A stretch of DNA of 64,000 bases from Calonectria ilicicola (Eukaryota > Ascomycota > Sordariomycetes > Hypocreales > Nectriaceae): assembly GCA_020809705.1 (NCBI GenBank), contig CP085827.1, positions 3,534,001 to 3,598,000 on the forward strand. Reading direction: 5' to 3'. The notes beneath the pieces are model-generated. The model was given only the letters and a program-made list of their open reading frames with translations, made no database searches and was not told the origin of the DNA. The translations under genes were made by a program, and so were the position numbers. Below are positions 4,001 to 36,361 of this stretch, piece after piece. Numbering within the stretch: the first letter of the stretch is position 1; each line of letters opens with the position of its first letter.

Positions 4001-4479
4001 TATTTATATTAAAGAAGAATATAAATGGAAAACTACTTTTTAAATTAAGTTTAGATTATTTAAATACCTAATTATACCTTTTAAACTTATAAATACACTA
4101 GTATCATTCTAGCAAATAATAATTAATATATTATAAAAATACTTAAATATCTTTATAATTTATTACCTAAATAATATTCTTATTTTCTTTAAAAATAAAG
4201 AAAAATATAAAAAATATATTTATAAAATCTTAAAAGCCCTTTAAAATACCAAACTTTTAATTAAATTAAAAAAAGCAAGTTCTATACCTAAAAAATAGAA
4301 TTTCTAAAATATATTATTAATTCTAATGAAATTTACATGGACCTAAAGAAAATCATTATAATAAAAGATTAAAAGGAATTTACTAATATAAAGAAAGTAT
4401 AAGCCTTCTTTAGATTTATTAATTATTACTAAAGATTTATTAAGGGATTTAATAATATTACCTTAAGTATAATAGAATT

Positions 4480-4879
4480 TATAACAGTCTGGTTAATTCC
4501 CAACTTAATAAACCAATCAGAATGAAGGGTTTATTATTAGCAGGATGATTAGGCGCGTTATAGTAAAATAAAATAATAGAAGTATTATATTAGGTAATAA
4601 TCAATCGCAATTAAAATAACTAAATTATATTAAAAGCTGATTAGTTCTATTCCTTATAGTAGGATCTGATCTATCTATATACTACTATATCTAAGGTTCC
4701 ATTATTATAATAATTAAATAGAGTTAGTTTAATAATATTTATTATAATCTTTGATGATGTTAAATAGGGGCTATTTGACTTTACTCTTATTGGCTAGTTA
4801 TGTAGGTCTAGAGTAGTTTTATTATGATTGGTTGGGGTTCTGTCTATGGTTATTGCCTTTAGGTATTTAGGTTATAATA
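4480..4879 (-). repeat. 3' LTR of element A (left side on the plus strand)
   Basis: This is 400 bp, the reverse complement of the family LTR. It begins tataacagtctgg at the target junction and ends ggttataata at its inner edge. Confidence 0.88.
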
Positions 4880-10800: not shown

Positions 10801-10981
10801 ATAATTCTAGCTTTTTTTATTTTAAATTATACTTATATATTTATAAGTTTCTTCTTGACCTACTATAGTTCTATAATTAACTTAATATTATTAGAAGGAG
10901 TAATAGTAGTAGAATTCTTTCTAAATATTATTATTACTTAATTATTAATATAAATAATTAATTAAATAAAAGCTTTTAATA

Positions 10982-11381
10982 TATAATAATTTAATTAATT
11001 CTTAATTTAATAAATTAATTAAAATAAAAGGTTTATTATTAATAGGATGATTAAATATATTATAATAAAATAAAGTAATAAAAGTATTATATTAAATAAT
11101 AGTTAATTATAATTAAGGTAATTAAATTATATTAAAAGTTAATTAATTCCATTTCTTATAGTAGGATCTGATCTATTTATATATTATTATATCTAAGGTT
11201 CTATTATTATAATAGTTAAATAAAGTTAGTTTAATAATGTTTATTATAATCTTCGGTGATGTTGAACGGGGGCTGTTCGACTTTACTTTTATTAACTGGT
11301 TATGTAGGTCTAGGGTAGTTTTGTTATGATTGGTTGGGGTTCTGCCCGTGGTCACCGCCTTTGGGTGTTTGGGTTATAATA
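10982..11381 (-). repeat. 5' LTR of element A (right side on the plus strand)
   Basis: This 400-bp partner of 4480-4879 ends at the junction in gggttataata, directly before the gaatt duplication. The outer half is less mutated than the inner half: it still has CG-containing stretches around 11250-11370. Confidence 0.88.
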
Positions 11382-14075
11382 GAATTAACTAAAAAAGGAA
11401 TTATCTTTTAATAAAGAAATAAAGTATAATAATTATTTAAAGTTATAAAAAATACTATCTTAAAAGAACCTATCCTTATAATATTCAACCTTAATAAGTT
11501 TATAGAGCTAGAAATCAATATATCAGACTTTACCCTAAAAGCCTAGATTAGATAATAAGATAAATAAAGAAATCTATATCCTATAATATTCTACTTATAT
11601 AAGCTATATAGCCTTAAGCTAAATTACTTTATCTATAATAAAGAATTCCTTATTATTATTAATACTTTTAAAAAATTCTAATAATACCTTTTAAAAAATA
11701 ATTATAAAATTATAATATATATTAACTATAAAAACATTACTTACTTTACAATTACTTAAAAACTTAATAAAAGGCAACTACAATATATAAAATATCTATC
11801 CAAATTTGATTATTAAATTATTTATATTAAAAGGACTGAGAATAATTATACCAATATAATTAGCTACCAATTTAACTATAATATAAAAAAACTAAAAATA
11901 TAGAAAAAATTATTAATCTATAATACTAATAGAGAACTAAAATAAACCCTAATTAATAGAATAATAATAAAAATAAAAAAAATAATTACCACTATAAAAG
12001 TAGAAGGATTACTATATATAACTAGAACTACTACCACAGAAATACTAATATAACAAGTAGAACAAAGTAATCCACTACTAAGGAAAATTAAAAAATATAA
12101 TCTAGTACTTCTAGAAGAAGAAAAAATAAATTATTTATAAGTATTAAAGAAATATTAAATAAAGTTAATAAAGGATATTTATAAATATTTCTTATATAAC
12201 TATAAAGGTATTAATAAAACCCTTAAATAAGTTAAATAGATATTTTCCTTTAATAAAATAAAAAAGAAAGTTAAATAAGTATATAAAAAATGCAATCTAT
12301 ATTAATACTTTAAAAAACCAAGATATAAACTATATAGATTATTATAATTATCCTTTATTATATAATAACTATAAGACTTAATTATAATAAACTTTATTAT
12401 TAACCTTCTTTTATTAGTAGACCCTATTATAGGAGTATATTATAATAGTATTTTCATTATTATTAATTACTTTATAAAAGTAATATATTATCTTCTTTAT
12501 AATAAAATAATAAAAGAAAAATAATTTATTTACCTTTTCTTTCAATATATAATTATTATATATAAACTACTAACTAAAATCATCTTAAATAAAGGATAAC
12601 TATTTATATCTAAATTTTAGTAAAGCCTAATATTCTTAATAGGATTAAATTATAAGTTAAGTATAATATTTTATCTTTAAATAGATAGATAAATTAAATA
12701 TTAAAATTAAGAAATTAAATAATATTTATAATATTATATTAATTATAAATAAACCAATTAGGTAGAAAAATTACCTATTATATAATTAATATATAATATA
12801 TCCTACAATCACAATATTAAAACAATACTAATAAAAGCCAACTTTAACTTTATATTAAACATTTACTAAGCCCCCTTAAAAAATATAATTTAAGTAAAAG
12901 CTATAATTAAGTTAGATGATTTAAGAAAATTATATAAAGAAATAAAGATAGAACTTAAGTTTATTTATAATATAATAAAAAGATATTATAATCTAAAAAG
13001 ATTAAAGGGATTATCCTTTTTAAAAGAAGATATAGTCTACCTAATAACAAAAAATCTTATAATAAAAAAATAAAATAAAAAAATCAACTTTATATAAATT
13101 AAATTATACCCTATTAAAAGAAAAATATTAAAAAACAACTATAAACTCGACCTCCTAGATAATATTAAAGTTTACTTTATCTTCCATATTTTATTACTAG
13201 AACCTAGTAATAGTATCTAAGTTAATATAGAATCTAGCTATAAACCACAAATAGAAAATCTAGAAGATTAATAGAAAATTAAAAAATCCTATAAAAAAGA
13301 GAAAAAGATAGAAAATTTAAAATTAAATAGAAAGATTATAAAAAAACAATCTAGGAACCTACTAAATATCTTATATATTATTTAAAGATATTAAAAGTAT
13401 TTCTTTAAAATTAATATAAAAAAAATCAAGTAAACTACTTTAATTAATAACCCTATAATCCTTAAGTAATTATATCTCTAATAATACTAATACCTTAGTA
13501 TACTCCTTTTCTTCCAATTCATCCAAATTCTTATAACCCTAAGAAATCATCTCCTTTACCTTCTTATATAAATAATACTCCTAAATATATAAATACTATA
13601 ATTAAACTAAAGTACTTATTAAATCTACCTTAGCCTTCTCTTTCTCCCTATTAATCTAATCCTTCTTATAAGAAATCTACTTAATTAAAAAGAAATAAAT
13701 ATATAAAAATAAAAAAAGAATATACTTATAAACCTAAATAAAAACACCCCTAAAATCACAGCTAGAATATTTATTCTTTATATAAAATTTACAATAACTT
13801 TTTCCTTTAATTATAATATAGGATAGCTACTTAGTATAAAAATAAGCCAAATAATAAAATATTTTAAAATTAAATTTATTAATTAATTTAATAATATTCT
13901 TTTAATAAGCTTTAATTATCTTAAAATAAAGTATAATCTTAATAATATAACCTAATATCCTATTAATACCTAGACTATAAGAAGATAAAAAGAGAAAAAA
14001 TATATAATAGTTATAAGTAGGGAAACTAGCCTATTTACCTGGCCTTAGGATAAGACTAATAAGAGGGGAGTATTA

Positions 14076-15314
14076 TATTATAATCTAAACACCTAAAGGC
14101 AATAATTACAAATAGAACCCTAACTAATCATAATAAAACTACCCTAGACCTATATAACCAACTAATAAGAGTAAAGTTAAACAATCCCCATTCAACATTA
14201 TCAAAAATTATAACAAATATTATTAAACTAACACTGCTCGTATCCTATCATACTGCTTGTATCCTGTTAGTTGTTTGATTGAACCATTATTTGTATTTCT
14301 TATTCTACCTTTCCTACCTTTTTCCTTCTACTATACTATATTTATAATTATTTAATTTAATATATTAATCTATATAAAACCCTTATTCTTTATTTCCTTT
14401 AAAAATCTCTTTTAATTCTTTTTAAAAGAAGATCTTTTATATTTAGGTATATTAAAATATCTTAGTATTAGTTTTATTATCTATTATTACTTTTAAATAA
14501 AGATTTTATTCTTATTTAAAAGATTCTCCTTTTTAAAAAGAAGTTTATATTTTTAAAGAATTAATTTAATTCTAATCTAATTCTTTATATTATCTTGCTT
14601 TTATACTTTTATTACTTTTTTTAAAGTTTTTTTAATTTTTAATTTTTTATATTTAATTTAATATTATTAACTTAGATTTCTTAATAAATATATTAAACTA
14701 TAGATTCTATTTCTAAAGGGCTATTACTTTTATAAATAATATATTATTTAAATATCTTAATTATATATATATATATTTTTAAGAGGGTCTATTTAATATA
14801 TATTTAAGAGAGGGTTATTTAAGAGAGATTTATTTAAGTATACATTACTATATTCCTAGCTAAAAATTCTTCCTTTTATTATACAAGGGTTCCATCTATC
14901 AAGGTTTTTATCTTATGTTGCCTTTAGGCTTTAGAGTTAGCATAAGGGCGATTGTATTAATTGATGTGAAAGTCTATCATGAGGCGTGCCTTTAGGTCCT
15001 GTGACCTTGTCGGCATCTTCCTTTCCTAAAAGGAAGAAAATAACTATATAAAAGACATATTATTAAACTAACTTTATTTAACTATTATAATAATAAAACC
15101 TTAAATATAGTAGTATATAGATAGATTAGGTCCTACTATAAAGAACAGAATTAATTAGCTTTTAATATAACTTGATTACCTTAATTATAATTAACTATTA
15201 TCTAACATAACACCTCTATTACTTTATTTACCATAACATACCTAACTATCCTGCTAATAATAAACCCTTTATTCTGATTGGTTTATTAAGTTGGGAATTA
15301 ACCAGACTATTATA
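14076..15314 (+). repeat. 3' LTR of element B, split by an insertion
   Basis: LTR sequence occupies 14076-14232 and 15073-15314, together about 399 bp, the same length as the other LTRs. The piece between them is foreign to the LTR. Confidence 0.82.
14233..15072. mobile_element. 840-bp insertion in the 3' LTR of B, flanked by a 16-bp direct repeat
   Basis: The exact 16-bp sequence atattattaaactaac occurs at 14217-14232 and again at 15057-15072, and the other LTR copies have it once. The left end carries two near-identical 14-mers 19 bp apart (actgctcgtatcct and actgcttgtatcct). The right 170 bp (about 14880-15050) is much less AT-rich than its surroundings. A 16-bp duplication is too long for an LTR element. 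It would fit a target-primed non-LTR element, but no poly(A) tail or coding frame is visible, so the class is undetermined. Confidence 0.6.
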
Positions 15315-17096
15315 CTTTTACCTTTAAATAAACAGATAAACTGAATGCTAAAACCAGGAAATCAAGTAATATTTATAATACTATATTAATTATAAATAAA
15401 TCGATTAGGTAAAAAAGTTACCTATTATATAATTAATATATAATATATTCTATAATTATAGTATTAAAACAATACTAGTAAAAGTTAATTTTGGCTTTAT
15501 ACTAGATACTTACTAAGCCCCCTTAGAAGATATAATTTAAGTAAAAGTAATAATTAAGTTAAATAATCTAAGAAAACTATATAAAGAAATAAAAATTGAA
15601 TTTAAATTTATTTATAATATTATAAAAAGATATTATAATCTTAAAAGGCTAAAGGGACTAACCTTTTTAAAAGGAAATATAATCTACCTAGTAATAAAAA
15701 ATCTTATAATAAAAAAATAAAATAAAAAAATCAACTTCATATAAATTAAACTATACCTAATTAAAAGAAAAATATTAAAAAATAATTATAAACTTAATCT
15801 CCTAGACAATATTAAGGTTCACCCTATCTTCTATATCTTATTACTAGAACCTAATGATAGTATCTAGGTGAACACAGGACTTAAATATAAACTATAAATA
15901 GAAAATCTAGAAGATTAATAGGAAATTAAGAAGATATTATAGAGAAAAGAGGAAGATAAGAAATTCAAAATTAAATAAAAAGATTATAAAAAAATAACTT
16001 AAGAACTAACAAAATATCTTATATACTACTTAAAGATACTGAAAGCATTTCTCCAAAAGAAGCAGAAGGAAAATTCATAGCATTCCAATCAATAGCATCC
16101 AAAGCCCCTAGAGCCTATATATTAACCACCACTTCTAACTCCACCCAATCTATATTATTTAAATTATCTATAGATAATAAACCATAATAAACCATTTCCT
16201 CATTACAAAACTTCAATAAATATTTCTATTTCTATAAATATATTAAACAAGTAAGGACTTTATTTAATTTCATTTAAGTAGCTAATATCTTCTTTTTAGC
16301 CTACTCTTTTACCTTATTTAAATAATTAAATTTCTTACTTAATTTAATTATTATTATACTTATTAATTATAAAATACTATAAAAATAAAAAATCTCTTAT
16401 AAAAATCCATTACTATCCCTAATATATTATAAGAATAACCTTAATATATACACTCCTCATAATAAGAAGACCAAGCTACTATCTAATAATAAAAATCTTT
16501 AAAAATATAAAAAGAATAAAATATAATATTATAATTAAATAAAGTAATATCTTTAGTAAGATAAATATAATAATAAGTAGATTTATTAAATATATTATTA
16601 ATATTATAAAAAGATAATTATAAGTTTAAGTTAACCTACTTTAAATAAAATAATATTAAGGTTATATATATAATCTTAAGGATAAAAACTAATAAAAGAA
16701 GGATATTATATTATAACCTATACCATAATAAAAACAATCAGACTCAGTAGAATAAGGATAGACCTACCTACTTGGACTATAATCACTACATATATATAAT
16801 TACCACTACAATTAGGATATAATTATTATAATTATTATTATAATTACCAAAATAATTACTATAATACCTAGTGATTATATATTAAGCTTAGAAGTATATA
16901 GATAGATTAGAATCCGCCCTTATAACTAATATTAACCAGCTTTTAATATAACTTGGTTATCTTAATTGCAATTAACTATTATTTAATATAATACTTCTAT
17001 TATTTTATTTTATTATAACATGCTTAACCATCCTGCTAATAATAAATTCTTTATTCTGATTGGTTTATTAAGTTGGGAATTGACCAGACTGTTATA
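15315..17096 (+). mobile_element. Element C, right part with its 3' LTR
   Basis: 15315-16043 continues the internal sequence seen at 12666-13405 in element B. 16044-16708 differs from B, but the end before the LTR aligns again with B's sequence just before 14076. The LTR is about 16709-17096. Its right half matches the family LTR closely (about 16911-17096), while its left half has diverged. C therefore looks like a sister subfamily of A and B. Confidence 0.7.
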
Positions 17097-18770
17097 TAGA
17101 TATACCTTCTTAACTTCTATCTCTACCTTAACTTTTACCTTAATCTCTATAATTATTAAAATATTACTTTTAAACATTTTTTTATTAATTAAAAAATAAT
17201 CTTTTAATATTATTATCTTCTTATACTTTTTATTTATTTTAATAAAAATAAATCTAAAATTATTTAATTTTATTAATTATTTTATAAAACTTTTTAAACT
17301 TTAATTTTTATTTTAATATTTCTATTTTTAACTTAAATTATAATTTAATATAATATTAATAAATTAAGATATTATTATTCTTTAAGCCTTTAGTACTTAG
17401 TATAATATATAGGGTTATTTATATAATAAAATATTATTATAATATATAATCCTTCTTTTATTTTAAAAATAATAATTTATTATAAAGCTAATATTTATAT
17501 AAATTTAAATTAATATATATCTTATATATAAAAATAAAAAAGTCTTTTTATAAAGGATCTTAATTAATAAGCCCTTTAATATAATTATACTATTATATTT
17601 ATAAAGAGTATAAGAACTTAATTATAATTTACTTTATATACTATATAATAGAACTATTTAATTATAAGCTATTACTAACTTTAATAATATAGATCTAGTT
17701 ATTAATTTAAATATCTAATATATCTTTATTAAGTTTTTCATAATTATATAATAGAGGTTTTTTATAGTTCTTCCTTAAACTTATATTAAGCTATATAACT
17801 AATTAGTATAATATATTTATTTAGAATTATTATTATTAAGCTTAAAGTTATTATTATTATATTTAAAATTATTTCTATTACTAAATTATTATAATTATAA
17901 AGTTTTTTATAAATATTATAATTTTCTTTATATTATATAAAATTTATATTATAAATAATAATAATATTTACTTTTTAATATTCTTTAAATTTTAAAATTC
18001 TTATTTTTTTAATTTTATAATTAAAATACTTTTAAAAATTAAAATAAAAAATATATTTAGATTTTTTAAAACTTTACTTTTTTAAATAAATTCTTTTTAA
18101 AATTCCTATTTATACTTTTAATTATATATAATTTATATTTATAACTTTTATTTATTATAATAAATCTTTATTAATTTAAAAAATAATAATATAATATTAA
18201 TCCTTCCTAAACTTTTAATAATTTTATTTATTATATAATATATTAATCTTTTAAAAAAAAGAAATTAAAAAATTATAATAAATTAGATTTATAACTAAAA
18301 TAAAGTATAAATAGGATTATAATAAATCTTTATTTTTATTATTAAAATTTTAATTTAATAAATTGTAGAACTATTTACTTATACTTATTATATAATACTA
18401 TTATAAATGTCCTTGCTTTATAATATCTTGCGCTAATATATATTTAGTATACATGTTTAATTGGTCCTTTTAGTCCTACATCTTTATAAATTAAAAATAA
18501 TATTTTAAATAAAAAAATTAAAATAATATTTAAATTAATTAATTAAAAATATAAAAAAATAATAAAAAAATAATAAAAAAATTTATAATTATATTAAAAT
18601 TTTAATATTATAATTTATATAATTTATAATATTAAAATAATTTTATTAATAATTAAAATATTTTAATATTAATAAAAAATATATTTATAATAATATAAAA
18701 ATATTAAATTACTTAAAAATGTATTATTTTAATATAAAACTCTAATTATAAAAATAAAAAATTATCTAGC
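17097..18770. other. AT-rich gene-free sequence, probably RIP-degraded repeats
   Basis: The sequence consists almost entirely of A and T, with no frame longer than a few dozen codons and no match to the LTR family to the left. A short less-mutated patch lies around 18410-18480. The base composition changes abruptly near 18770, where normal genic DNA begins. I cannot assign an element. Confidence 0.6.
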
Positions 18771-24400: not shown

Positions 24401-25249
24401 TTACTCTATCCAGCTATGTTGCTTGAGCCACGCGTCACACATTGATGGCCATTTAGAGACAGGGAGATTCTGGGTATCGAGACCAAACCCATGGGGTGCA
24501 TCCGCGAATATGTGTAGCTCAACAGAGGCCTCGTTTTTCGTGAAAGCCTCGGCAAGACGGTAGGCATTAACAACTGGGACGACCGGGTCGTTATTAGAAT
24601 AGACAATGAATGCTGGAGGAGCTGGTGATTTCAGTTGAGCATCTGGTTGGACTGCGTCGTAAAGAGCTTGTTTCTCTGCCGGTGGGAGTGGTGGCTTGTT
24701 CGCAATGATGGTACGGCCCACGGCGTTGGTTGATATCGGGCCATATCCTAGGATAGCGAATTGGGCTTGTGGCACATCTGAATCGGGAGATGTCCATGTT
24801 TGAGGGTATTCTGCCAGAAGAGCAGCGCCGAGGTGGCCACCAGAAGATAGCCCACAGATACCGAGCCCTTGCGGCGCAAGCCCACTCTCTGCCATCAACT
24901 TAAAAGCACGTCTAGCATCATCCAAGGGTGCCTGAGCGCCAGTTTGTGCAGTAGGAAACCGGTGGACAAGAACAAAGGCGTAGAATCCCAAGCTGTTTAG
25001 CCACTTTGCAACGGCAATGCCCTCACGGCCAACCATGAGCTGAACGTAGCCGCCGCCTCCGAGAATGAGAACTCCTCGTCCATTGGCCTTTTCTGGACTA
25101 TATCCAAAGAGAAATGGGCGTTCGACTTGGGTCACGACAGCGTTGTCCAAGTTGTTTCCGGGTCGGTCAAGCTCAAAGGCCCCATCAAGTGGGCCGTCCT
25201 CCCACAGCGGCCAGCACCGGTCGGCTCCGAGAATAGCAGCAGTTGTCAT
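24401..25249 (-). CDS. Alpha/beta hydrolase, acetyl-esterase/BD-FAE-like, intronless
   Basis: This 282-aa single-exon protein has the alpha/beta-hydrolase fold. The oxyanion-hole box LILGGGGYVQL is near residues 61-71. The nucleophile elbow is GLSSGG with Ser135, the acid Asp221 is in SNNDPVVP, and His253 is in DAPHGF, so the triad looks complete. The family (COG0657/acetyl-xylan-esterase-like) removes small acyl groups from sugars or other alcohols. No signal peptide is visible, so it is probably cytosolic. It lies 221 bp downstream of murC on the same strand and also lacks introns. This suggests it may belong to the same acquired set, perhaps trimming an acyl group from an amino-sugar intermediate (inference). 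Confidence 0.8.
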   Translation of the reverse strand: MTTAAILGADRCWPLWEDGPLDGAFELDRPGNNLDNAVVTQVERPFLFGYSPEKANGRGVLILGGGGYVQLMVGREGIAVAKWLNSLGFYAFVLVHRFPTAQTGAQAPLDDARRAFKLMAESGLAPQGLGICGLSSGGHLGAALLAEYPQTWTSPDSDVPQAQFAILGYGPISTNAVGRTIIANKPPLPPAEKQALYDAVQPDAQLKSPAPPAFIVYSNNDPVVPVVNAYRLAEAFTKNEASVELHIFADAPHGFGLDTQNLPVSKWPSMCDAWLKQHSWIE

Positions 25250-25470
25250 GGCAGATAGGGTACGTTCGAAAGGAGCGATTTGAAAGATTCAAGTTTGTTC
25301 AAAAAGGGTCGATATTTTGATGCGGATTATGAGGGAAAACTAAACTGCCATCTCGGAGCACATCAACCCGAGGCCCGAGCTTTGGGCATTTTGAGCTATT
25401 TCCACCCACAAGCCTCTTATTTTCCACCATTCTCCTTGCATCCTCAAAATGTCTGGGAGTTCTTATCACT

Positions 25471-26940
25471 TCATTTAGATTGTAGTGCCTTCAACTGCTC
25501 AGGCAGGTTTCTCGCCCAATCCGTCGAGGTTTGATACCCTGTACATACCACAAAGTCTCCCTCTTGCGCAATGCTCGACACCAACTCGGGCAGCTGCGTA
25601 GGGTCAGCCATATCTATCACATTTTGGATGCCATTCGCTTTCAGGTGCGCAACAAGTATATGCCGCGACTCTGCAGTCTTTTCGCTACCTGGGGGTTGAC
25701 CAATGATGACATGATCCGCATCTTCAAATGCGGCGGGGTATTCGTCCAGCCAGCCCCTCACGATTGCAGGTCTTCCGCACGGTTGATCTACGATGATCGT
25801 CTTGCATGCACCCGCCTGCTTCGCCATTCCCAGTGTGTTTTTGATCTCTGCTGGGTGAGCAGCGTGGTCATCAATAATTGTGATACCGTTTACCTCGCCG
25901 ACGCGGGTAAAACGTTGCTGCAGGCCAGGAAAGGTACTCAAAGACTGCTGGATGACGTTGTGTTCGATCCCGAGTTCAAACGCGATGGCAATTGCAGCCA
26001 GTGAATTTCGGACATTGCCTTGTCCGACCGCGTTGACCGTGAAGGGGCCACTGGTTCTTTTGGATGGATGCTGATTTTCTCGGACGAGGAATGTGAATGA
26101 TGTGGTTGAATATGTCACATCCACGGCTTGAATATATGCGTCGTCTGAAGTTCCGTACGTGATAATGTTGCGATCCTGGACCGCAGGAAGAATTTGGCGA
26201 ACACCAGGATCATCGATGCAAAGTACCCCAAGTCCATAAAACGGCACGCTGCGAACAAATTGAGTAAAGGCTTCTCGAGTTTTGTCCTGCGATTTCCAAA
26301 AGATGATGTGATCGCTGTCGATGTTGGTTACCACCGTTACCAGAGGGGGTAGCCATAGAAAAGAGCCGTCACTCTCATCTGCCTCAACAACCATCCAATC
26401 TCCAGAACCGACTTTTGCGTTACTATTGTAGAGATTCATGACTGCACCATTGACGACTGTAGGTGTCAACCCGCCAGCTTCTAATACTCCTGCAACCATG
26501 GTGGTGGTTGTGCTTTTGCCATGGCTGCCAGCCACGGCAATTGCCTTTTTGTGCTTCATCAAAGCAGCTAGCATCACTGCTCGGTGAATCACAGGGATTC
26601 CCTTGTCTCTAGCACTCTCAACTTCGATATTGTCCCGTTCTCTGAACTTGATAGTCAATGCCGCGGCTGATGCCACCACCAATTTGGCGGAATTGACGTA
26701 TTCTGGGTCATTGCCAATGAAAACAGTGATGCCAGCCTCCCGAAGTCGCTCGGTGTTTTTGCTTTCCTTTGCGTCGCTCCCTTGTATTGTGTATCCCAAC
26801 TGTTTCAGGGTTAGTGCGATTGCGGACTGGCCAATGCCACCTATTCCGACGAAATGAATGAGCCCAATGGAAGATGGAAATCCGGGCATGTGTGGTGGCC
26901 TGTCATTGTTCAGACAATCCTTAAAGTCTGGGAAATACAT
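25471..26940 (-). CDS. murC: MurC-like UDP-N-acetylmuramate--L-alanine ligase, intronless, bacterial type
   Basis: In bacteria this enzyme joins L-alanine to UDP-MurNAc using ATP. The 489-aa protein shows all three Mur-ligase domains. The N-terminal UDP-binding box is LIHFVGIGGIGQSAIA (28-43), the P-loop is AGSHGKSTTT (137-146), the VVEADESDGSF box is at 185-194, and NIDSDH is at 206-211. In the C-terminal part IDDHAAHPAEI (356-366) replaces the usual DDYGHHPxEI, and DQPCGRP replaces QPHRYSR. Bacterial proteins start near Met18 (MPGFPSSIG), so the first 17 residues may be an added leader or the true start may be 26889. The sequence resembles alphaproteobacterial MurC in my judgement (FYGLGVLCIDDPGV box). 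It may have changed its substrate. Confidence 0.9.
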   Translation of the reverse strand: MYFPDFKDCLNNDRPPHMPGFPSSIGLIHFVGIGGIGQSAIALTLKQLGYTIQGSDAKESKNTERLREAGITVFIGNDPEYVNSAKLVVASAAALTIKFRERDNIEVESARDKGIPVIHRAVMLAALMKHKKAIAVAGSHGKSTTTTMVAGVLEAGGLTPTVVNGAVMNLYNSNAKVGSGDWMVVEADESDGSFLWLPPLVTVVTNIDSDHIIFWKSQDKTREAFTQFVRSVPFYGLGVLCIDDPGVRQILPAVQDRNIITYGTSDDAYIQAVDVTYSTTSFTFLVRENQHPSKRTSGPFTVNAVGQGNVRNSLAAIAIAFELGIEHNVIQQSLSTFPGLQQRFTRVGEVNGITIIDDHAAHPAEIKNTLGMAKQAGACKTIIVDQPCGRPAIVRGWLDEYPAAFEDADHVIIGQPPGSEKTAESRHILVAHLKANGIQNVIDMADPTQLPELVSSIAQEGDFVVCTGYQTSTDWARNLPEQLKALQSK

Positions 26941-27377
26941 CCTGGCTAGTCTGCTGATTTCGAGAGAAAAGGTTGGTTGGGGTAGCCAGTGAATGCGTCT
27001 ATATGGCAGAGATGTGTTGGGTTGGCGAGCAATAAATCACTCGATACCCAAGCGAAAAGCTCATTCCACGTCCAGAATTGGGGTGCGCTGTGCTTTTGAG
27101 ACATGCAGCGGCGCTATAATGAACAGTTGGCTTCGCGTCAGGTTGCAGGATATTTACTGCAGTGTAGCGTCTGCCATTCGCCACAATAAGGGTCGAGCTG
27201 GGCCGGTGTGGACTAAGATCAACAATTGGTGCATGGTAAGCCACTAATCTGCATGTGAGACCAGTCGGTCAAGTTGGCGAAAGCGACTGTAACCGTACGC
27301 CTGAGAGGAGCGTAGTGACCGCCTAGCTCTAAGAGCGCAATGATAGGCCTAAAGCGGAGTCCTTAGACGCAAGCATC
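26941..27377. promoter_or_regulatory. murC-murB intergenic region, presumed murC promoter
   Basis: These 437 bp separate two minus-strand genes, so murC probably has its own promoter, as in eukaryotes, rather than being in an operon. I see no gene. I identify no TATA box with confidence. Confidence 0.4.
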
Positions 27378-28439
27378 CTAAAAAGACGCAAATTCCGTTC
27401 TTGCTTCTGTTGGAAACAATTCTGGTTCCTGCACGAGTGTTACGCTGAACCTTTGATACACTGCATCAACAATCCGTTTTTTGAAAGCCAGTAACTGGTT
27501 GGTTGATCGGGCATGCTCGTTGACAAGCACGAGCGGCTGACTGTGCCAAGTTGCCATGCCAGTCGTTTTGTCATGCGCATCTTTAAAACCTGCTTGTTCT
27601 ATGAGCCAAGCAGCGGCAATTTTAACTTGCGATGTCTGAGCTTCAAGCCAGTGTGGGATGTTGGGGTGCATTGACTGAAGCTGTGTGAAAACATCAGCAT
27701 CAATAATTGGGTTAGCGAAGAATGACCCGCAATTTGCAACACTGGCAGGATCAGGCAGCTTGCGAGAGCGGATTTCTATAACAGCCTCACGAATAACATG
27801 TGGCGTGTAGGTTTGAATGCCATGTTCTTCAAAATAGTTTGCTAGTGCGCTGTAAAATGGCGGCTTCGGATGTTGGCGTTGCAGATGGAAAGTCACGGTT
27901 GTAATAAAAAAGCGGCCGCTGTCGGGGCTTTTGAAACGACTGGCTCGATAGCCAAAGCTGCATTCGTTGCCCGGAATAGCAATAAATTCCTGGAGCGTCG
28001 CATCGTATGCTTCAACTTTGACTATTGTTTGCGAGACTTCCTGGCCGTAGGCTCCCACGTTCTGCACAGGCGCAGCACCGACAGTACCCGGGATCATAGT
28101 GAGTGCTTCGATCCCGGTCAAGCCGTCGTTGACTGTCCGATCAACAATGTCATCCAAGCATTCACCTGCGCCAACTGTGAGGTAAACATTGGTACTGCCG
28201 TCATCCGATAACTGGTAACGTCTAATTTTGTTGATCATGACTAACCCACTGTAGCCTTCATCGCGCCATATGATATTGCTGCCTTGTCCGATCATAAGGG
28301 CTGGCAGATCATGGTCTTGGGCCCAGTCGATGGCCTCGCGTAGTTCGTCGCAATTGCGCACCTCGGTAGCGTATGCAGCTCGACCACCGAGACGCATAGT
28401 CGAGTGCGAACTTAATGCCACATCTTTTTGTAGTATCAT
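27378..28439 (-). CDS. murB: MurB-like UDP-N-acetylenolpyruvoylglucosamine reductase, intronless, bacterial type
   Basis: In bacteria this FAD enzyme uses NADPH to reduce UDP-GlcNAc-enolpyruvate to UDP-MurNAc. The 353-aa length is normal for type I MurB. FAD-domain boxes are GQGSNIIW (51-58) and IPGTVGAAPVQNVGAYGQEV (116-135). The substrate-binding CSFGYRASRFK is at 160-170. The catalytic Ser239 is in NCGSFFANP (236-244), and the EPE motif holding the catalytic Glu is at 338-340. WLIEQAGFK (278-286) is also typical. Active-site residues I can recognise are kept, so an active reductase is likely. There is no signal peptide, so it should be cytosolic. No intron is present, unlike most neighbours outside the cluster. 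Confidence 0.92.
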   Translation of the reverse strand: MILQKDVALSSHSTMRLGGRAAYATEVRNCDELREAIDWAQDHDLPALMIGQGSNIIWRDEGYSGLVMINKIRRYQLSDDGSTNVYLTVGAGECLDDIVDRTVNDGLTGIEALTMIPGTVGAAPVQNVGAYGQEVSQTIVKVEAYDATLQEFIAIPGNECSFGYRASRFKSPDSGRFFITTVTFHLQRQHPKPPFYSALANYFEEHGIQTYTPHVIREAVIEIRSRKLPDPASVANCGSFFANPIIDADVFTQLQSMHPNIPHWLEAQTSQVKIAAAWLIEQAGFKDAHDKTTGMATWHSQPLVLVNEHARSTNQLLAFKKRIVDAVYQRFSVTLVQEPELFPTEARTEFASF

Positions 28440-28843
28440 GGCGAATTTACCCTGTGACTGTCTGTTGTTGTAAAACTACTGAAAGAGGCGTGAACGCGAA
28501 AGGAATCCATGTAGCTTAAAAATATGAAGAATTAGGGTTAGGGCTGGTATTCGCAAGCATCGATAGTATTATTTTGATATTTCTTTTAGAATCGTTTTGT
28601 CACATATCAAATGTTATCTTGCAAATGCCACCATGCATAATCGAACGGAACTTTGTGTGTAATTTATAGCTGATACCTGTGGGGTCCACGCTGGCGAAAT
28701 CCAGAACACATCACAGATCAATCAGATGAGCGTTGCGCTGTTTCAATCAATACAAGAATATTTGAAGTAAGGTTTTATTCAATAATTCATGCTATCAAAT
28801 GATGATCTTAAAAAAATTCAATGCAGCTTGGCATACGCTGTTA
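28440..28843. promoter_or_regulatory. murB upstream region / OPT 3' flank
   Basis: This 404-bp stretch holds the presumed murB promoter. Some AT-rich runs occur (28540-28620), but I see no coding sequence. Confidence 0.4.
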
Positions 28844-31323
28844 TCAAGGATTTCGCATGGCAGGTGGAAGGTCAGAAGGTGGAAAACAGCGATCAGTTAC
28901 AGCGCTATTGCCCCACCATGTCGGAAATTCTGTGTTTGTAAGACTGATTGTAAACACCATAACAGTTTGCATGATCTGAGAACCACAGTCGAGTCCTACG
29001 CTTGTTAAGTAATTGTACTTGCGGAACCAAACGGGATGGTAGTGATAGATGTAGCCCATACTATAATTGAAGCTGTTAGATGACGTCTTTTCTGCATGCG
29101 GAGAACAACTCACAAAACAAAGGCAACAATGGCAGATGTCATTAAGTTAGCAGACTCGTATATAGGGAAATATGTCGCTCCCCACATCATAACCACGGGA
29201 TTACACCAGTGTTCTAGATTCCAGTGAGGCTTCCGTCTCTGAACGAGATAGGTCAATATCACGAGCATTGGACCGACCAGGAAAGCGTAGTAGATGTATG
29301 AGTAGTTGGACGAGCTTTTGAAGAACTCTCCCGGGCCAAGGACACCCCAGATCACCGATATGGAATAGAAGTTGCGGCTTTTGAGCGCGAGCCAGGCTGT
29401 GGAACGCTTTGCTCCAGTCAATACATCAGCTCCCACGTGGTCAATAATGACACGCATGATTCCGTAATTAAAGAAAGGGCCTATCACCGTGCCGTAGACC
29501 TGTGCAATAAAGAGTTCCTTTTCTGGAATCTTCATATAAAAACCGAACTTGTAGTCTGAGCATAGATTCAAAGTCTGGTCTAGCACCTGACGGCCAAAGA
29601 CCAATGCTGCAAGCACGGCTCTGGGGTTGCCATTGAACAAAGTACCAGCGATTAATTCGGTGAAATATGCCATTCCAACCTGAATGTTGGCTATGCCAAA
29701 TAAAATGCCGCTTGGGTAGGTAAAAAGCAGAGACACAAAGCTGATGAGTATGAATCCCCACCATGGCAGACCCCAGTCACCACCATACAGTGCTCCCAGT
29801 GAGAGACCTCCAGAAATGACCAGTAAGATCATATACCACCAGTGGGGCACCCTGGGGAACTCTGACATGACCTTCAAGTACGGATCGTCTGCAAATGCAG
29901 TTTTACCTTTGAAGGTCTCTCGCACGACGTCGTAACCTTCTTTGCCATACCACAAAATTGCAAAGGCGATGGCCCCAGCAGATGCAGCGAATCCCCAGAA
30001 GAAAGTCATTGCGTACGAGGTGGCCCAATAAGGAGCAGAATACTCATCCATCGCAGTGTGGTTTCCATGACCGTCTGGGGTCAAGACGCGGGAGATGTTG
30101 TATTGGGCCCCTGTATAGTCAAAAGTGCTCGAGGACATGGCCGGAAAGCTCTTGCTGTCAAGTGTGTTTGTGAAGTATAGGATGGGATACAGAAACCAGC
30201 ATGAAAAGACAGCTCCAGCGACTGGATTTGCAGTCGACCACAAAGGCGTCATGAGAGGACTGAAGAAAGTTGCATAATTCCAGTCAAGAGTGATGTCCAG
30301 CATACCAAATCCGTACGTCCCAGAGCCAAGAATATATGCGATCCAGTTTCCGTGACCCATGTAGCACAGGAGCGGCAAGGAACTGATCATTGGCCATATC
30401 AGACCAGGAAACCACTGGTAACAAAATGTAGCGACGGCGACAATTCCAAAATACCGAAGCGACTTTGCAGCCATTGTTGGGTGTTTGTGCATCGCGTTGA
30501 GGAGGACTACATTCGGCAGCACAATCGGATAGAATATTCTTGGAGGCCGGACAACGAGATCACGTAGTAGTCCAACAAACCCATATCCGAGCAATTGTGT
30601 TGAGAGCAGAAAGAGGATGGCCCACCCCGCATTAATCTTGTGGCCTATTGAGTAGTCAGCGTGAGGGTATTCCCTGTGGATCAGGGGAGTTCTGTACCAT
30701 AGTATAGCTCAAGTGCGGAGAGTGGCCCCAGGCCATACGCAGTCTTTTGGCTGCCCCAAACAGCGACGGTGATCAAAGCATGTTCCTTGGCATTCCATGG
30801 CCCTGGATTGAGGCTCCATTCATATCCAAAAGTTTTAAATTTTCGAGTCGGTAACCATCGAGCCATAGCATCACCGGTCCACCATGAAAGTAGCTGCACC
30901 GTGATTGCCGATATGCTGGTGTTGTATGGTTTAAAGAAGTAAAAGGTTGAGATTACGCAGCCAACACTAACCCAGAATCCACCCAGGAACCAAAAGCGGA
31001 ATGTTAGAATTGATTCACTACCATGTATCAGCATGTGAAACACATACAAAAAGGCGACTACTATTTTGCTTCTCTATGCAGTCGCATGTGACTTACGTGG
31101 GATCATTGTGCAAGGAGACAGTCTTTGCTACCAGTGGAACCGGATAGTCCTTAACGCGGGGATCAATGACTTCATCACGATCGCCTGTGGTGATATAACC
31201 ATTCACAGAGTCGTTCTCTCCCGAGCTTGACGATACAAGGCCTGCTGAGGATGATACGTGTTTTCGTGTCGCATCCTCGTGGTCGGGATCCGGCGCTGGA
31301 TGATCCGGATCGGGAGACTCCAT
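28844..31323 (-). CDS. OPT-family oligopeptide transporter
   Basis: This is a proton-coupled small-peptide importer of the plasma membrane (isp4/Opt family). The model has four exons: 31323-31097, 31017-30698, 30644-29114 and 29060-28844, giving 764 aa, normal for OPT. Introns are 79, 53 and 53 nt. The hydrophilic N-terminus is Asp/Pro/Ser-rich. The diagnostic WSLNPGPWNAKEHALITV lies in exon 2, followed by about a dozen hydrophobic segments such as LLSTQLLGYGFVGLLRDLVV. Introns and sequence are typically fungal, so this gene was not acquired with the mur genes. Its position between murB and the secreted serine hydrolase, with which it shares an upstream region, makes it a candidate importer of peptides or muropeptides (inference). 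Confidence 0.88.
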
Positions 31324-32038
31324 GTCCGTTCTATGGGACTCGCTGCTATAGCCCAGTACTAGCTTTTGCGACGAAACAGCTTAATAAAGTGAGATTTTAA
31401 ACATTGTTTTTGCATTGAAGGGACTTCTGCGGGGTATCCAGCTAGGTGAAGGGATCTGACCACCCGTAAGAGTCCGGGTCATGCACCCGCGGTTGGGGTG
31501 GGCGATCATCCAGCCACTCGCTAAGAAATGTCTCGAAAAAGTGGCGAGTTGGGGGGAAAACTTGACATGCCCGCGCGCGGAATATGCAAGAGAAAGCGGA
31601 ACAAGAGTGAGCCGTTTACTTGGTCCTATCAATACCCGTTATGTCCCGCTTCATGTATTGTAACGTTCCCGTGTTACCATGGCGGGGATGGTGGTGAACA
31701 AGACGCTGAGCGGAATGTATCTAGTGGCGTCGTTTCCCAGGATCAGCGGCCGCTCAGCCGACCCACACCATGTCCAACAATTTGCCCATTCAGTCGAACT
31801 GCATGTGCAATTGCACCCAAGTGCGTGCGGAGCATGCAGTAGAGATCGACAGACCGGAGCAACGTTTCCCGTGTGCTGAAAAACCCAGAAGTTTTGCCTT
31901 TGACAAATCCCTTCAATGTCTTAGTTAGTCGAGTCGATCTAGCAGCTAGGAACCGTCGCGAAATCTTCTAGGCCTAAGATCTGCCGGAAGTCAGACATGC
32001 ATCACTCCTAAACGCTGGTAGCAAGCCTTTTTGATACC
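31324..32038. promoter_or_regulatory. Shared divergent upstream region of OPT transporter and secreted serine hydrolase
   Basis: These 715 bp separate two genes transcribed away from each other, so they may be co-regulated. I find no clear TATA box or repeated operator. Confidence 0.45.
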
Positions 32039-33370
32039 ATGGCGCTGCGTTTAATCAGTGTTTTTAGTGCTTGGACAAATTTGTCTATCTTTTTTCTCGC
32101 GCTCTCGGCCCAAGGCCAACCACTGGACGATGTCTTGCGCTACAGGCCACCAAGCTCGGTGGGAATGGACCCCGCGGTGCTTCACAGGATGGTTAGAAAC
32201 TTGACGGCATACACTCAACCCGCCAACTATAGCAAATTCACGCACTACGAAATCCATCCCATAGAGCCTGGGGGAACTATTGCTATTGGGCACAAAAGCA
32301 CAGTCGTTAGTGCCTTTGCTTTTGGAAAAAGGAGCCTTTACGCTAACGCCGATGGCGATGCACTACCGGAAAACTTGCAGGAAGACGCGACCTTGGACAC
32401 CATTTATGACATGGCAAGCCTCACCAAACTTTTTACGACGGTCGCAGTGTTGAGAGAAATAGATTCGGGAAAGATCCACTTAAATAGCACCGTGGAAACA
32501 TATGTACCTGGGTTTGAAGTAAATGGAAAGGCTAACATCACTATTTTAATGCTGCTCACTCACACAAGCGGATTCGATTCTGGTCCACGACCGTCGCTAT
32601 ATTCCTCTTCGTACCAAACTTACGAACAGCGAATAAAGGCTATCATTACCCAAAAATTAAAAAATCCTCCTGGAAGTACCTTTCTCTACTCGGACCTCAG
32701 CTTCATGGCCCTTGGAATCGTGCTAGAGAGAGTTACGGGCAAAAAGTTGGACGTCGTGATATCGGAGTTCACTACTCTACTTGGCATGCGCGGGACCTTT
32801 TTTAACCGAAATAACGTTGAAGGGGCTTGCAATCCTTTTTATCACCAGACAGCTCCAACCGAGTTCCAGATTGAAGTGTTGGGTTCTGGTGAACCTGTCC
32901 GACCGCAGCCAGTCCGCGGCACAGTGCACGACGAAAACACGTGGGCGTTAAATGGCGTCGCTGGCCATGCGGGCCTATTCTCTACTATGAAGGATTGCGC
33001 AGTGTTCTGTCAGATGATTCTAAATAATGGGACTTACGGAGGCCGCAGAATATTATCTACCAAGGCAGTCGATTTGATCTTTACAAATCTAAATGCTCAC
33101 TTCCATAACATAGACTACGATCACGGTGCCGGGTTTGAGCTTAACCAGCAGTACACCGCAGGTCCCTTGAACAATTCGCTGGTCGCATCTCACACAGGCT
33201 TTACCGGGACAAGTATTGTCATCGACCGTGGCAGGAATTTATTTTATATTCACTTGGCCAACCGAGTACACCCTTCAAGGAACTGGAGCAGCAATAATAT
33301 CGTTCGTCAAGCTCTAGGCTATTGGGTTGGTTCAAGTTTGGGACTTGATCTCAAATTCCCAAGTTCTTGA
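32039..33370 (+). CDS. Secreted serine hydrolase, penicillin-binding protein/class C beta-lactamase family (PBP4B-like), intronless
   Basis: This 443-aa protein belongs to the serine beta-lactamase/DD-peptidase fold. A signal peptide is clear (hydrophobic 12-24, likely cleavage after AQG, residue 26). The catalytic motifs are SLTK (Ser127-Lys130), YSD (217-219) and HTG (385-387), where the last replaces the usual KTG, as in several esterase and peptidase subfamilies. GVAGHAGLFST (306-316) resembles bacterial PBP4B/YfeW-type proteins. Seven N-glycosylation sequons (N54, N63, N149, N166, N330, N378, N415) suit passage through the fungal ER. It may cleave D-amino-acid peptides or esters outside the cell; the exact substrate is unknown. 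There is no intron. It sits between OPT and murA. Confidence 0.85.
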   Translation: MALRLISVFSAWTNLSIFFLALSAQGQPLDDVLRYRPPSSVGMDPAVLHRMVRNLTAYTQPANYSKFTHYEIHPIEPGGTIAIGHKSTVVSAFAFGKRSLYANADGDALPENLQEDATLDTIYDMASLTKLFTTVAVLREIDSGKIHLNSTVETYVPGFEVNGKANITILMLLTHTSGFDSGPRPSLYSSSYQTYEQRIKAIITQKLKNPPGSTFLYSDLSFMALGIVLERVTGKKLDVVISEFTTLLGMRGTFFNRNNVEGACNPFYHQTAPTEFQIEVLGSGEPVRPQPVRGTVHDENTWALNGVAGHAGLFSTMKDCAVFCQMILNNGTYGGRRILSTKAVDLIFTNLNAHFHNIDYDHGAGFELNQQYTAGPLNNSLVASHTGFTGTSIVIDRGRNLFYIHLANRVHPSRNWSSNNIVRQALGYWVGSSLGLDLKFPSS

Positions 33371-34408
33371 TGGACTTTTCATTGACCGCAGTGCTTCTTG
33401 TACATAGATTTTGCGAGTATACCATACCTATTCATCTGAGTAAACAAGGACCTACATGTGTCACATTGTCATGCATTACTCTTGATCAATTTAACATAGA
33501 GCTCTGCAACTATATAGTATCTAAAATTAGAAATGTTGAAACTTTTCTTCCCTCTCGTGTGTGACATTTGTCGTTGATGGGATATTGAAAACCGAAGACA
33601 AAAATGTTTGTTCTTTAACATGACAAAAACTAAGATTTTATCGCGAAAAAGAAAAAGTTGATTGACCCTTCAGTAAACAAGATCCATATTGGTTTTTTTA
33701 GTTTCATTTTACTTAGTTCCCAGGCTTTTCTGGTTTGCATACCCGTGTTGCTGGGGCGCGATCTACCATTCTTCATCCAAGCTAATCGACATTAGAGCAG
33801 ATAAGCTGCCCAAGCTACCAGTATTGAACTGAGAAAAGTGGTCTGAGTAGATTGCGCCTTTCGCTATCAACAAATGTATAAAGCTTTGAACATATCATCT
33901 GTTACCAGTTTGAATATGAGACAGAAAGGAGAATGAGGCCAGCTACGTGTTATCACAGGGCATTGAACCAATCGTCATCATCAGGCTTGAATTGCGCTAC
34001 CACACACCGGTCGGATCAATACAACGCTAAGCGGCAGAATGCACAACCTTAGTGGCTCGCCGGTGAGCCGAAAGTACCTGTGGAATGCATTGAATGGCGC
34101 GTCTCATTCGAGATACGGTAGTCAGCCGACATGGCGACCGACCCACAATGTGTGCGCCCTACTTCTGGTGTGCAGACACGGCCTACCTGGAACATAACAT
34201 CCCATAACATCGATCTTATCCCATTCACGGGCAGGCCCTGGCCTAAATACATCAGTTTGCTTGATCAGATTTAGAACATCCGATAGATATGATCTGATTG
34301 GTCGGCTGCAAGCATAGGTACGTCGGAGATGGGACTTTGCAAAGGCTCATTACTCCCACCAGCTGGGCTGGACTCTCGTTAACCAGTTGAGCATAGAGCA
34401 GGTAAACA
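33371..34408. other. Intergenic, serine hydrolase 3' flank and murA promoter
   Basis: These 1038 bp contain short frames only, none with a recognisable product. The murA promoter should lie in the right half. I see nothing else. Confidence 0.4.
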
Positions 34409-35824
34409 ATGGGCCTGAATGATCTTGGTCACAAAGGGGATGTCGCAAGGAAACACTCCGTTCGCCCAAGGCATAGCCCCCCCATGAACCTGCGCGTAAA
34501 GGGTGGACATGAACTACACGGTAACATCCGTCTCAAAACAAGCAAAAACGCCGCCGTTGGTTTGCTATGCGCCTCTCTGCTTAATTATGGCGTCACTAGG
34601 TTCAAGGCTTTCCCGCGCATTCAAGAGGTGTACCGCATCATCGAGGTTCTAAGAAGTATTGGGGTGCAGATCAAATGGCTGAACAACAGCGATCTGGAAA
34701 TTCGTCGTCCAGTCAATCTCGACCTGGCGAACCTGAACGTCGAAGCGGCCCGTAAAACCCGTTCAGTTCTCATGATGATCGGGCCGCTTATGCACGATCA
34801 CGCGGACTTCCAAATTCCATATGCTGGCGGTTGCAAGTTGGGGGCCCGCACAGTTCAGCCGCACCTCTACGCCCTTGAAGATTTTGGAGTCAATATCAAT
34901 CCTTCTGGAGGTTATTACAAGATAAATTCAAAACCCAAGCCAGCTGGCCGTGTTACTCTGTACGAATCCGGCGATACCGTCACCGAAAACGCTCTGTTTG
35001 CTGCTGCCCGCACAGAAGCTGATTCAACTCTGGAATACGCATCTGCCAACTACATGGTACAAGACGTTTGCTTTTTTCTCCAAAAGCTCGGTGTAAAAGT
35101 TGAGGGTATTGGAACCACGGTGCTACACGTCAAAGGGTTGCCATTCATCAAGAAGAATGTGACCTATGCATCCAGCGAAGATCCCATCGAAGCCATGTTT
35201 TTTATTGCCGCGGCGATTACGACCAACTCGGAGATTACTATTGAAAGGATACCTATAGGATTTCTATCTTTGGAACTCTTCAAGCTAAAGAAGATGGGGC
35301 TCAAATATACTGCTACGGAACGCTACACAGCCAGTAATGGGAAAACGGAACTCGCTGATATCACAATACACAAGCACAACGGCAATCTCCATGCGTTAAC
35401 AGACAAACTCCACCCAAATGTCTTCCCGGCCGGCATCAATTCTGACAACTTGCCTTATTTTGTGCCCATTTCTGCTGTCTCAAATGGTCGGACACTGATA
35501 CACGATTGGATGTATGAGAAGCGTGCCATCTACTACTCAAAGATGAACGAAATTGGCAGCCAAGTGGAATTGCTTGACCCGCACCGCGTTTCCATTATTG
35601 GACCAACGAGATTCAAGTCAGCAGATTTGGTGTGTCCACCAGCATTACGCCCAGCCAGTCTGCTACTTATTGGAATGTTGGCAGCAGACGGCTGTAGCAC
35701 CCTGCGCAATATTTACCCTATTCAACGTGGTTATGAAGACTTGGCCGAACGCCTCAATAGTCTCGGTGCCAATATTGAAGCTTTTAGTGGTCCTAGTAAA
35801 GATAAACACAAAACTACAAATTAA
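34409..35824 (+). CDS. murA: MurA-like UDP-N-acetylglucosamine 1-carboxyvinyltransferase, intronless, bacterial type
   Basis: In bacteria this enzyme transfers enolpyruvate from PEP to UDP-GlcNAc, the first committed step of peptidoglycan synthesis. The 471-aa protein has the EPSP-synthase-type inside-out barrel. The family's Lys-Asn pair is K46-N47 (LKTSKNAAV). The loop cysteine attacked by fosfomycin is Cys142 in GGCKLGAR, with Arg147 after it. The acid is Asp346 in INSDNLPYF. Arg372 (EKRAIYY) and Arg414 (ALRPAS) are also kept, and IQRGYEDLAERLNSLGA is near the end. Bacterial proteins begin near Met26, so the first 25 residues (rich in His, Arg and Lys) are an extension, or the start is 34484. 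The closest forms I recall are from Patescibacteria/Saccharibacteria. There is no intron and no signal peptide. Confidence 0.92.
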   Translation: MGLNDLGHKGDVARKHSVRPRHSPPMNLRVKGGHELHGNIRLKTSKNAAVGLLCASLLNYGVTRFKAFPRIQEVYRIIEVLRSIGVQIKWLNNSDLEIRRPVNLDLANLNVEAARKTRSVLMMIGPLMHDHADFQIPYAGGCKLGARTVQPHLYALEDFGVNINPSGGYYKINSKPKPAGRVTLYESGDTVTENALFAAARTEADSTLEYASANYMVQDVCFFLQKLGVKVEGIGTTVLHVKGLPFIKKNVTYASSEDPIEAMFFIAAAITTNSEITIERIPIGFLSLELFKLKKMGLKYTATERYTASNGKTELADITIHKHNGNLHALTDKLHPNVFPAGINSDNLPYFVPISAVSNGRTLIHDWMYEKRAIYYSKMNEIGSQVELLDPHRVSIIGPTRFKSADLVCPPALRPASLLLIGMLAADGCSTLRNIYPIQRGYEDLAERLNSLGANIEAFSGPSKDKHKTTN

Positions 35825-35896: not shown

Positions 35897-36361
35897 TCAG
35901 CCGCCCTCGCCGTAGCAAACTCCGGTATCGCATACATAAGCGCTACTGCAGTCTGCTTGAGTTGCGCAAGAAAGATTGCACACATCTGATCCACAATCAC
36001 CGTTTTGGTTACATATTTGAAAGCAATAGTTATTGACGCAGGAATTACCTGCGTCACAATCTGCGGTTGTGCTACAAGCGGGTGGCGCACACTGCGCAAA
36101 AATACACACATATCCCAGCACCGGGCAGTCTTGATCGACATCGCAAGGCGCAGTGCCCCACGCGCAAACTTGAGGTTTTGCTGAGGCTGATGCAGATATG
36201 CTAGATGCAGTTGCAGTAGATGTAGATGTGGTAGATGCAGTTATAGTAGATGTGGTTGCAGTAGATGCTGGGAAAGTCGTATAACAGATCAAATTTTGCG
36301 ACGTGACGATTTTTGAGGCTAAGGTTGCCCAAAGAAAAGGTAGTAGTGTAAAAGTGCGCAT
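35897..36361 (-). CDS. Small cysteine-rich secreted protein
   Basis: This 154-aa single-exon protein has a signal peptide (residues 1-21, hydrophobic core LLPFLWATLA). A Ser/Thr/Ala-rich, probably O-glycosylated linker spans 30-62. The C-terminal domain (66-149) has 16 cysteines, arranged in repeats of the type C-x(4-5)-DC-x(4-6)-C. The even number and regular spacing imply a disulfide-stabilised extracellular module, similar in style to EB/Dickkopf-like or wall-binding modules. I do not recognise a named family. It is convergent with murA, with only 72 bp between the stops. It could be a secreted effector or wall protein, but no function can be inferred. Confidence 0.7.
   Translation of the reverse strand: MRTFTLLPFLWATLASKIVTSQNLICYTTFPASTATTSTITASTTSTSTATASSISASASAKPQVCAWGTAPCDVDQDCPVLGYVCIFAQCAPPACSTTADCDAGNSCVNNYCFQICNQNGDCGSDVCNLSCATQADCSSAYVCDTGVCYGEGG
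36189..36272 (-). repeat. Imperfect short tandem repeat encoding the Ser/Thr/Ala linker
   Basis: Units related to tagatgcagttgcag and tagatgtgg recur on the plus strand inside the cysteine-rich protein gene. They encode the low-complexity Thr/Ser/Ala linker. Such repeats often vary in length between strains. Confidence 0.6.

Follow-up and report, generated by a model that had tools for sequence, protein, structure and literature searches.

Muramic acid serves as a bacterial marker, and in insects with nested symbionts, such as mealybugs, transferred Mur genes reportedly complete the peptidoglycan of the symbiont. Here we analyze a 64,000-nucleotide stretch of the Calonectria ilicicola genome (C3:3534001–3598000, G000; hereafter the window), part of a 12-contig, 69.9 Mb fungal assembly, in which a 10.4 kb span holds homologs of MurC, MurB and MurA, each in one unbroken open reading frame (ORF). 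This cluster resembles the bacterial MurA–MurF pathway in that its MurA, MurB and MurC retain catalytic or ATP-binding residues, and differs from it in that MurD, MurE, MraY and a transpeptidase were not detected in the fungus, the L-alanine residues of MurC are changed, and a predicted secreted hydrolase lies in the cluster. As in the insects, a eukaryote appears to hold transferred Mur genes from different bacteria, with the difference that the fungal chain has no detected MurD or MurE. NikO, which is part of nucleoside antibiotic synthesis, offers a further comparison. NikO-type transferases (PDB 4fqd) share the MurA fold, and against PDB entries the fungal protein matches MurA better (1.4e-49 vs 9.4e-19). 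The recycling clusters for N-acetylmuramic acid (MurNAc), murQ-murP-yfeW of Escherichia coli and murQRP-amiE-nagZ of Bacillus subtilis, share a PBP4B-type hydrolase with the fungal locus (excerpt of PMC5061867), whereas MurQ was not found in the fungus, and fungal MurA and MurB would build rather than degrade MurNAc. With a probability of roughly 0.5, we read the locus as a fungal cluster, likely acquired from two or more kinds of bacteria, whose probable product is UDP-MurNAc and which is predicted to couple the lactyl carboxyl of that compound to an acceptor other than L-alanine, yielding a small molecule and no wall.

The cluster comprises the following features, in window coordinates:

24401..25249, minus strand: alpha/beta hydrolase, acetyl-esterase-like, in a single frame (best NCBIfam match PaeX, 128.7 bits, cut-off of 550 not reached)
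25471..26940, minus strand: MurC-type ligase with an altered L-alanine pocket, 489 aa (TIGR01082 378.8 bits, fungal clade 100/99, pocket counts, structural model)
27378..28439, minus strand: MurB, UDP-N-acetylenolpyruvoylglucosamine reductase of saccharibacterial type, 353 aa (NF000755 329.2 bits, tree, residues)
29110..31073, minus strand: oligopeptide transporter of the OPT family, split over two or more frames (29110–30594 and about 30684–31073) with an apparent intron (PF03169 in both frames)
32039..33370, plus strand: PBP4B-type serine hydrolase with a hydrophobic N-terminus (PF00144 165.4 bits, NF002968 156 bits)
34288..34408, plus strand: likely decayed remnant of a bacterial helix-turn-helix (HTH) domain, broken by a stop and out of the MurA frame (profile match, shuffles)
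34409..35824, plus strand: MurA, the enolpyruvyl transferase acting on UDP-N-acetylglucosamine (UDP-GlcNAc), saccharibacterial in type but lacking the HTH, 471 aa (identity, tree, residues, column counts)

These intact ORFs bear out the original prediction of clustered, single-frame MurC, MurB and MurA genes, and the serine hydrolase, alpha/beta hydrolase and OPT transporter that it placed beside them are all present as ORFs with domain matches; cluster membership of the alpha/beta hydrolase is uncertain. In profile searches of the genome, made in six frames and exon by exon so that introns may conceal genes, MurB_C matched once, Mur_ligase_M twice (MurC and a MurF on contig C10) and EPSP_synthase twice (MurA and a 1155-aa frame on contig C8, presumably AROM). 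Because matches to these three families are so few genome-wide, the adjacency of these full-length MurC, MurB and MurA enzymes of a single pathway is no chance event.

The fungal MurA is of a saccharibacterial type. Among the best 120 of 8000 scored matches, identity ranged from 69 to 74% and every organism-bearing name was Saccharimonadales or Saccharibacteria, and in a quick 47-row tree the fungal protein fell in a starred set of four whose other three members are bacterial. It scores under the cut-offs of two MurA models (272.0 bits on TIGR01072, cut-off 392.7; 284.4 bits on NF006873, cut-off 297), and the sole MurA-family matches of three saccharibacterial genomes also lie under the TIGR01072 cut-off (290.5–304.7 bits). 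In each of the three saccharibacterial genomes that were searched, two of which carry the word complete in their titles, the MurA family is matched by this type alone, so it likely acts as MurA. The fungal protein keeps K22, N23, R91, C115, R120, D305, R331, R371 and R397, which we take to be the catalytic residues. Of the near-invariant columns, defined as at least 97% uniform over 119 bacterial rows, its catalytic domain retains 203 of 213, compared with 1 of 27 across the HTH and the linker. An N-terminal HTH is typical of the bacterial counterpart, and the fungal ORF begins at the end of that domain. The piece of DNA just 5′ of MurA, in another frame and interrupted by a stop, scores 7.5 bits on a profile built from 113 bacterial HTH domains; of 300 shuffled sequences, 289 received a score and not one reached this value, and the piece ranks above all others among 644 scored segments (674 tried) taken from 20–64 kb on both strands. 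This piece is likely a decayed remnant of the donor HTH, a weak match for which position makes the case.

MurB points to the same bacterial group. The protein passes NF000755 (cut-off 277), its best 120 matches are 57–62% identical, and the organism-bearing names among them are Saccharimonadales or Saccharibacteria, bar one labelled Nevskiaceae. In the MurB tree the fungal protein lies in a starred 19-row set with 17 Saccharibacteria and the Nevskiaceae-labelled row. That row (P0325) sits among Saccharibacteria in the tree, and its label is probably a binning error. The fungal MurB keeps 106 of 110 near-invariant columns and the residues R159, Y190, K217, S229 and E325, presumably the catalytic set. 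Codon usage gave values of 0.65 for MurB and 0.58 for MurA against Saccharibacteria, compared with 0.23 and 0.34 against eleven pooled host genes, a weak signal given that single host genes attain 0.53 with Saccharibacteria.

Bacterial MurA loci, surveyed as the best 80 of 426, frequently hold MurB as a neighbor. MurB lies upstream of MurA in 54 of the 65 loci with at least 5 kb of upstream sequence (at 40% identity or more in 46), and a same-strand MurB of at least 40% identity occurs in 48 of all 80 at a distance of 1.5–5.4 kb (median 2.1 kb). Read from the sequence of one such locus (L019), a glyA-like gene on the opposite strand separates MurB from MurA; unlike L019, the fungal locus has no glyA-like gene between the two. 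The fungal MurA and MurB may have arrived in one transfer and been rearranged later.

The origin of MurC is different. Its closest matches (P0001–P0011, 56–65% identity) come from six named Penicillium species, three named Aspergillus species and two entries without a species label, and the MurC tree places the window protein in a fungal group (100/99) with ten of these and the fragment P0022; P0011, a damaged gene model, was excluded from the tree. Bacterial MurC matches are 45–50% identical, and the named ones are mostly Acetobacteraceae. A tblastn search at 1e-15 found no MurC match in the 80 bacterial loci surrounding MurA. We reject the transfer of all three genes as a single block on these two grounds, the lack of a MurC match in the bacterial MurA loci and the mostly acetobacteraceal names among the bacterial matches of MurC. 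The original prediction of bacterial origin by transfer is supported by the trees of all three proteins, and its picture of one acquired set gives way to one in which MurA and MurB group with Saccharibacteria and MurC does not. Within the fungal group, MurC of Penicillium lagena (P0007) clusters with Aspergillus MurCs instead of those from its own genus, which hints at transfer between fungi.

The nearly all-bacterial matches of MurA and MurB would also be expected from an assembly chimera or from bacterial contamination, an explanation that we consider extremely unlikely and reject. Matches on contig C3 extend to 6.9 Mb, so the contig is chromosome-scale, and fungal frames surround the cluster; MurC has relatives in nine named Penicillium and Aspergillus species, an HTH remnant precedes MurA, and the glyA-like gene of L019 is not present between MurB and MurA. 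We conclude that the Mur cluster is genuine and transferred and, it appears, maintained.

The feature that sets the fungal MurC apart lies in the amino-acid pocket. All 13 fungal MurC rows retain the motifs for ATP and magnesium, with the P-loop as GSHGKST (GTHGKTT in bacteria), the last histidine of NIDSDH and the EADESD motif, from which three rows differ by one residue, and the predicted MurC structure (pLDDT, the model's confidence score, 88.5) finds its best structural match in Haemophilus influenzae MurC. The residues believed to bind L-alanine in that enzyme are H376, R377, R380, Y346 and H348 (excerpt of PMC3060825). We located them in the alignment by motif and counted them over the 13 fungal-clade rows and 108 other rows. 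Y346, H348, H376 and R380 occur in none of the fungal-clade rows and, at each position, in 107 or 108 of the 108 others; the complete five-residue set is found in no fungal-clade row and in 107 of the 108 others, the exception being P0012. P0012 has lost Y346, H376 and R377 but retains H348 and R380, and may represent an intermediate. The altered pocket suggests an acceptor other than L-alanine, and with four of the five believed L-alanine residues changed in every fungal-clade row, UDP-MurNAc-L-alanine, named as the product in the original prediction, has lost ground.

Genes for the later steps of wall building were sought across the genome. Neither MurD nor MurE was found, as PF08245 matches only MurC and MurF genome-wide; MraY was not found, the sole glycosyltransferase family 4 match scoring 37.1 bits on the mraY model, whose cut-off is 192; PF00905, the transpeptidase domain, had no genome match; and an alanine racemase was not found in the profile search. 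The D-Ala-D-Ala ligase domain PF07478 gave 12 ATP-grasp matches, and of the five examined none came near a Ddl cut-off. MurQ was likewise not found (best match 24.6 bits, cut-off 302). Complete peptidoglycan synthesis is rejected because MurD, MurE, MraY and a transpeptidase were not found in these six-frame searches, and MurNAc catabolism because MurQ was not. As these later wall enzymes were not detected, the product is probably something other than peptidoglycan, a proposal of the original prediction. The kept catalytic residues of MurA and MurB support that prediction too. One full-length, single-frame MurF does occur elsewhere, at C10:1050075–1051502 (L003 1162–2586; TIGR01143 406.7 bits, cut-off 288.6), with a GC content of 60% compared with 42–52% in the flanking kilobases and with HET, ankyrin and peptidase A4 frames as neighbors. 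Its presence, together with the mixed origin of the transferred Mur genes, would suit a role in making peptidoglycan for an endofungal bacterium, as reported for mealybugs with nested symbionts; we judge this very unlikely given that MurD and MurE were not found and that the MurC pocket is changed, and no trace of a symbiont was noticed, although no search aimed at one was made.

The serine hydrolase of the cluster matches PF00144, the family to which we take AmiE to belong also. On the PBP4B model NF002968 it scores 156 bits, the next of the 20 genome matches scoring 47.2 and none reaching the cut-off of 385; two other PF00144 proteins of the genome that were scored are both LipL-like. By these scores the cluster hydrolase is the sole strong PBP4B relative in the genome and falls short of NF002968 membership, and it is likely secreted. 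Both PBP4B, which lies within the murQ operon of E. coli, and the MurNAc-L-alanine amidase AmiE, found in the corresponding cluster of B. subtilis, belong to bacterial MurNAc-recycling clusters (excerpt of PMC5061867). This kinship and the adjoining OPT gene would accord with feeding on muropeptides, in which the secreted hydrolase would cut peptides off bacterial wall fragments for uptake by the transporter, with only a secondary part left to the Mur enzymes. MurA and MurB, though, are enzymes of biosynthesis, and the failure to find MurQ also speaks against feeding, to which we give little credence.

Three of five actinobacterial plasmids that we opened, all from Streptomyces, carry MurA, a serine hydrolase and MurB consecutively (L117 10894–15092, L120 4893–9134, L121 4894–9113), and the two of their three hydrolases that were scored both fit PBP4B best. 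The cassette shares three gene types with the fungal cluster and, like it, does not sit in a wall operon; it differs in having no MurC and in its distant sequences (24%, 28% and 31% identity). Because the proteins are so distant, the plasmids offer a parallel to the fungal cluster and no source for it. The Streptomyces row also includes a nucleotidyltransferase-like protein before MurA. Plasmids of Rhodococcus and Nocardia (L118 10022–11008, L122 7989–9029) carry MurB without an annotated neighboring MurA or serine hydrolase.

A second fungal MurB bears on how such a cluster could form. In Aspergillus terreus a single 839-aa gene model (P0009) joins MurB, placed first, to MurC, placed second, which matches the gene order of the window; the model may be an annotation merger of two genes, and its MurB portion ends in garbled sequence. 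The A. terreus MurB shares 34% identity with its counterpart in the window and up to 39–44% with proteobacterial MurBs, and constraining both fungal MurBs to one group costs 42 log units (approximately unbiased test, p 9.6e-6); its branch is long and its own position in the tree unsure. The two MurBs were very likely acquired separately, and as their origins differ, the MurB–MurC pair likely formed twice. We infer from this repeated pairing of MurB with a fungal-clade MurC that the two serve a shared function. The check for linkage in other fungi, whose lack the original prediction had named as refuting it, is partly answered by MurB and MurC in one possibly merged A. terreus model.

In the pathway that we propose, MurA would transfer enolpyruvate onto UDP-GlcNAc, available in fungi as a chitin precursor, and MurB would reduce the enolpyruvyl product to UDP-MurNAc. 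A re-tooled MurC could then use ATP to activate the lactyl carboxyl and couple it to another acceptor. Acting extracellularly, the hydrolase might cleave either the product itself or muropeptides of bacteria, and the OPT transporter, whose role in the cluster we infer, might move a peptide or conjugate.

Several results weigh against this reading. The fungal MurC passes TIGR01082 (378.8 bits, cut-off 335.1), and an arginine alignable with R377 is present in 8 of 13 fungal MurC rows, the window protein included, beside a one-residue insertion in three alignment modes; in a smaller MurC alignment this candidate is shifted by one column. The amino-acid choice of bacterial MurC is itself not absolute, serine and glycine being weakly accepted (excerpt of PMC8844914). 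The passed cut-off, the alignable arginine and a fold nearest that of H. influenzae MurC favor the alternative that the altered pocket still accepts L-alanine and that ordinary UDP-MurNAc-L-alanine is made; with four pocket residues absent from all fungal-clade rows and kept in 107–108 of 108 others, and no MurD found to consume the product, we regard this as unlikely. The lone MurF on C10 has no place in the proposed scheme, and PF00144 is common in the genome (54 match rows), so that the clustering of the hydrolase could be partly chance. No fungal relative of MurA appears among the best 120 listed matches, and the complete MurA–MurB–MurC set is known from this fungus alone.

MurA has also lost a few near-invariant columns, keeping 95.3% compared with a lowest bacterial leave-one-out value of 97.7%, which implies somewhat faster evolution in the fungus. 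Divergence beyond that of the bacterial rows, together with the single frames, is what might be expected of functionless transferred genes heading for decay. That explanation seems improbable to us in view of three intact ORFs with retained catalytic residues, the contrast between a decayed HTH and a conserved MurA catalytic domain, and the retention of MurC across Penicillium and Aspergillus.

Beyond the reading of this one locus as a source of a non-wall small molecule, a broader proposal, for which we put the odds somewhat below even, is that fungi, drawing on different bacteria, have put together a route to muramic acid de novo on more than one occasion, with the last ligase re-tooled for a new acceptor and a secreted PBP4B-type hydrolase processing the product. 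This would be the first eukaryotic muramic-acid natural product outside peptidoglycan. If true, muramic acid made by a fungus would change how its presence in soil or tissue is interpreted, compounds that mimic or block the building of bacterial walls could result, and a eukaryote would have merged genes of Saccharibacteria, members of the Candidate Phyla Radiation, with a ligase of separate origin. With MurB apparently paired twice with a fungal MurC, the assembly of a pathway from independent transfers becomes testable.

No description of a fungal MurA–MurB–MurC cluster was found among the titles and abstract openings listed for openly accessible papers. An annotation table for Fusarium graminearum assigns EC 1.1.1.158 to two genes (excerpt of PMC4511438), and a study of transfer in Penicillium lists 15 events, none Mur-named in the excerpted text, with families common to other genera set aside (PMC9893605). 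The terms muram and Mur ligase are absent from PMC11898892, PMC4626719 and PMC5169069.

The flanks agree in part with the original prediction of ordinary fungal genes on both sides. To the right of the cluster lie a TatD-type gene and then sugar-transporter, alcohol dehydrogenase, cytochrome P450 and fructose-bisphosphatase frames, as predicted; the left 18 kb do not fit. Behind MurA is a small cysteine-rich ORF (35897–36361, minus strand) with a hydrophobic N-terminus and without a Pfam match. The left part (window positions 1–18000) is AT-rich, with a GC content of 16–21%, lies directly beside the gene-bearing part, and resembles DNA degraded by repeat-induced point mutation.

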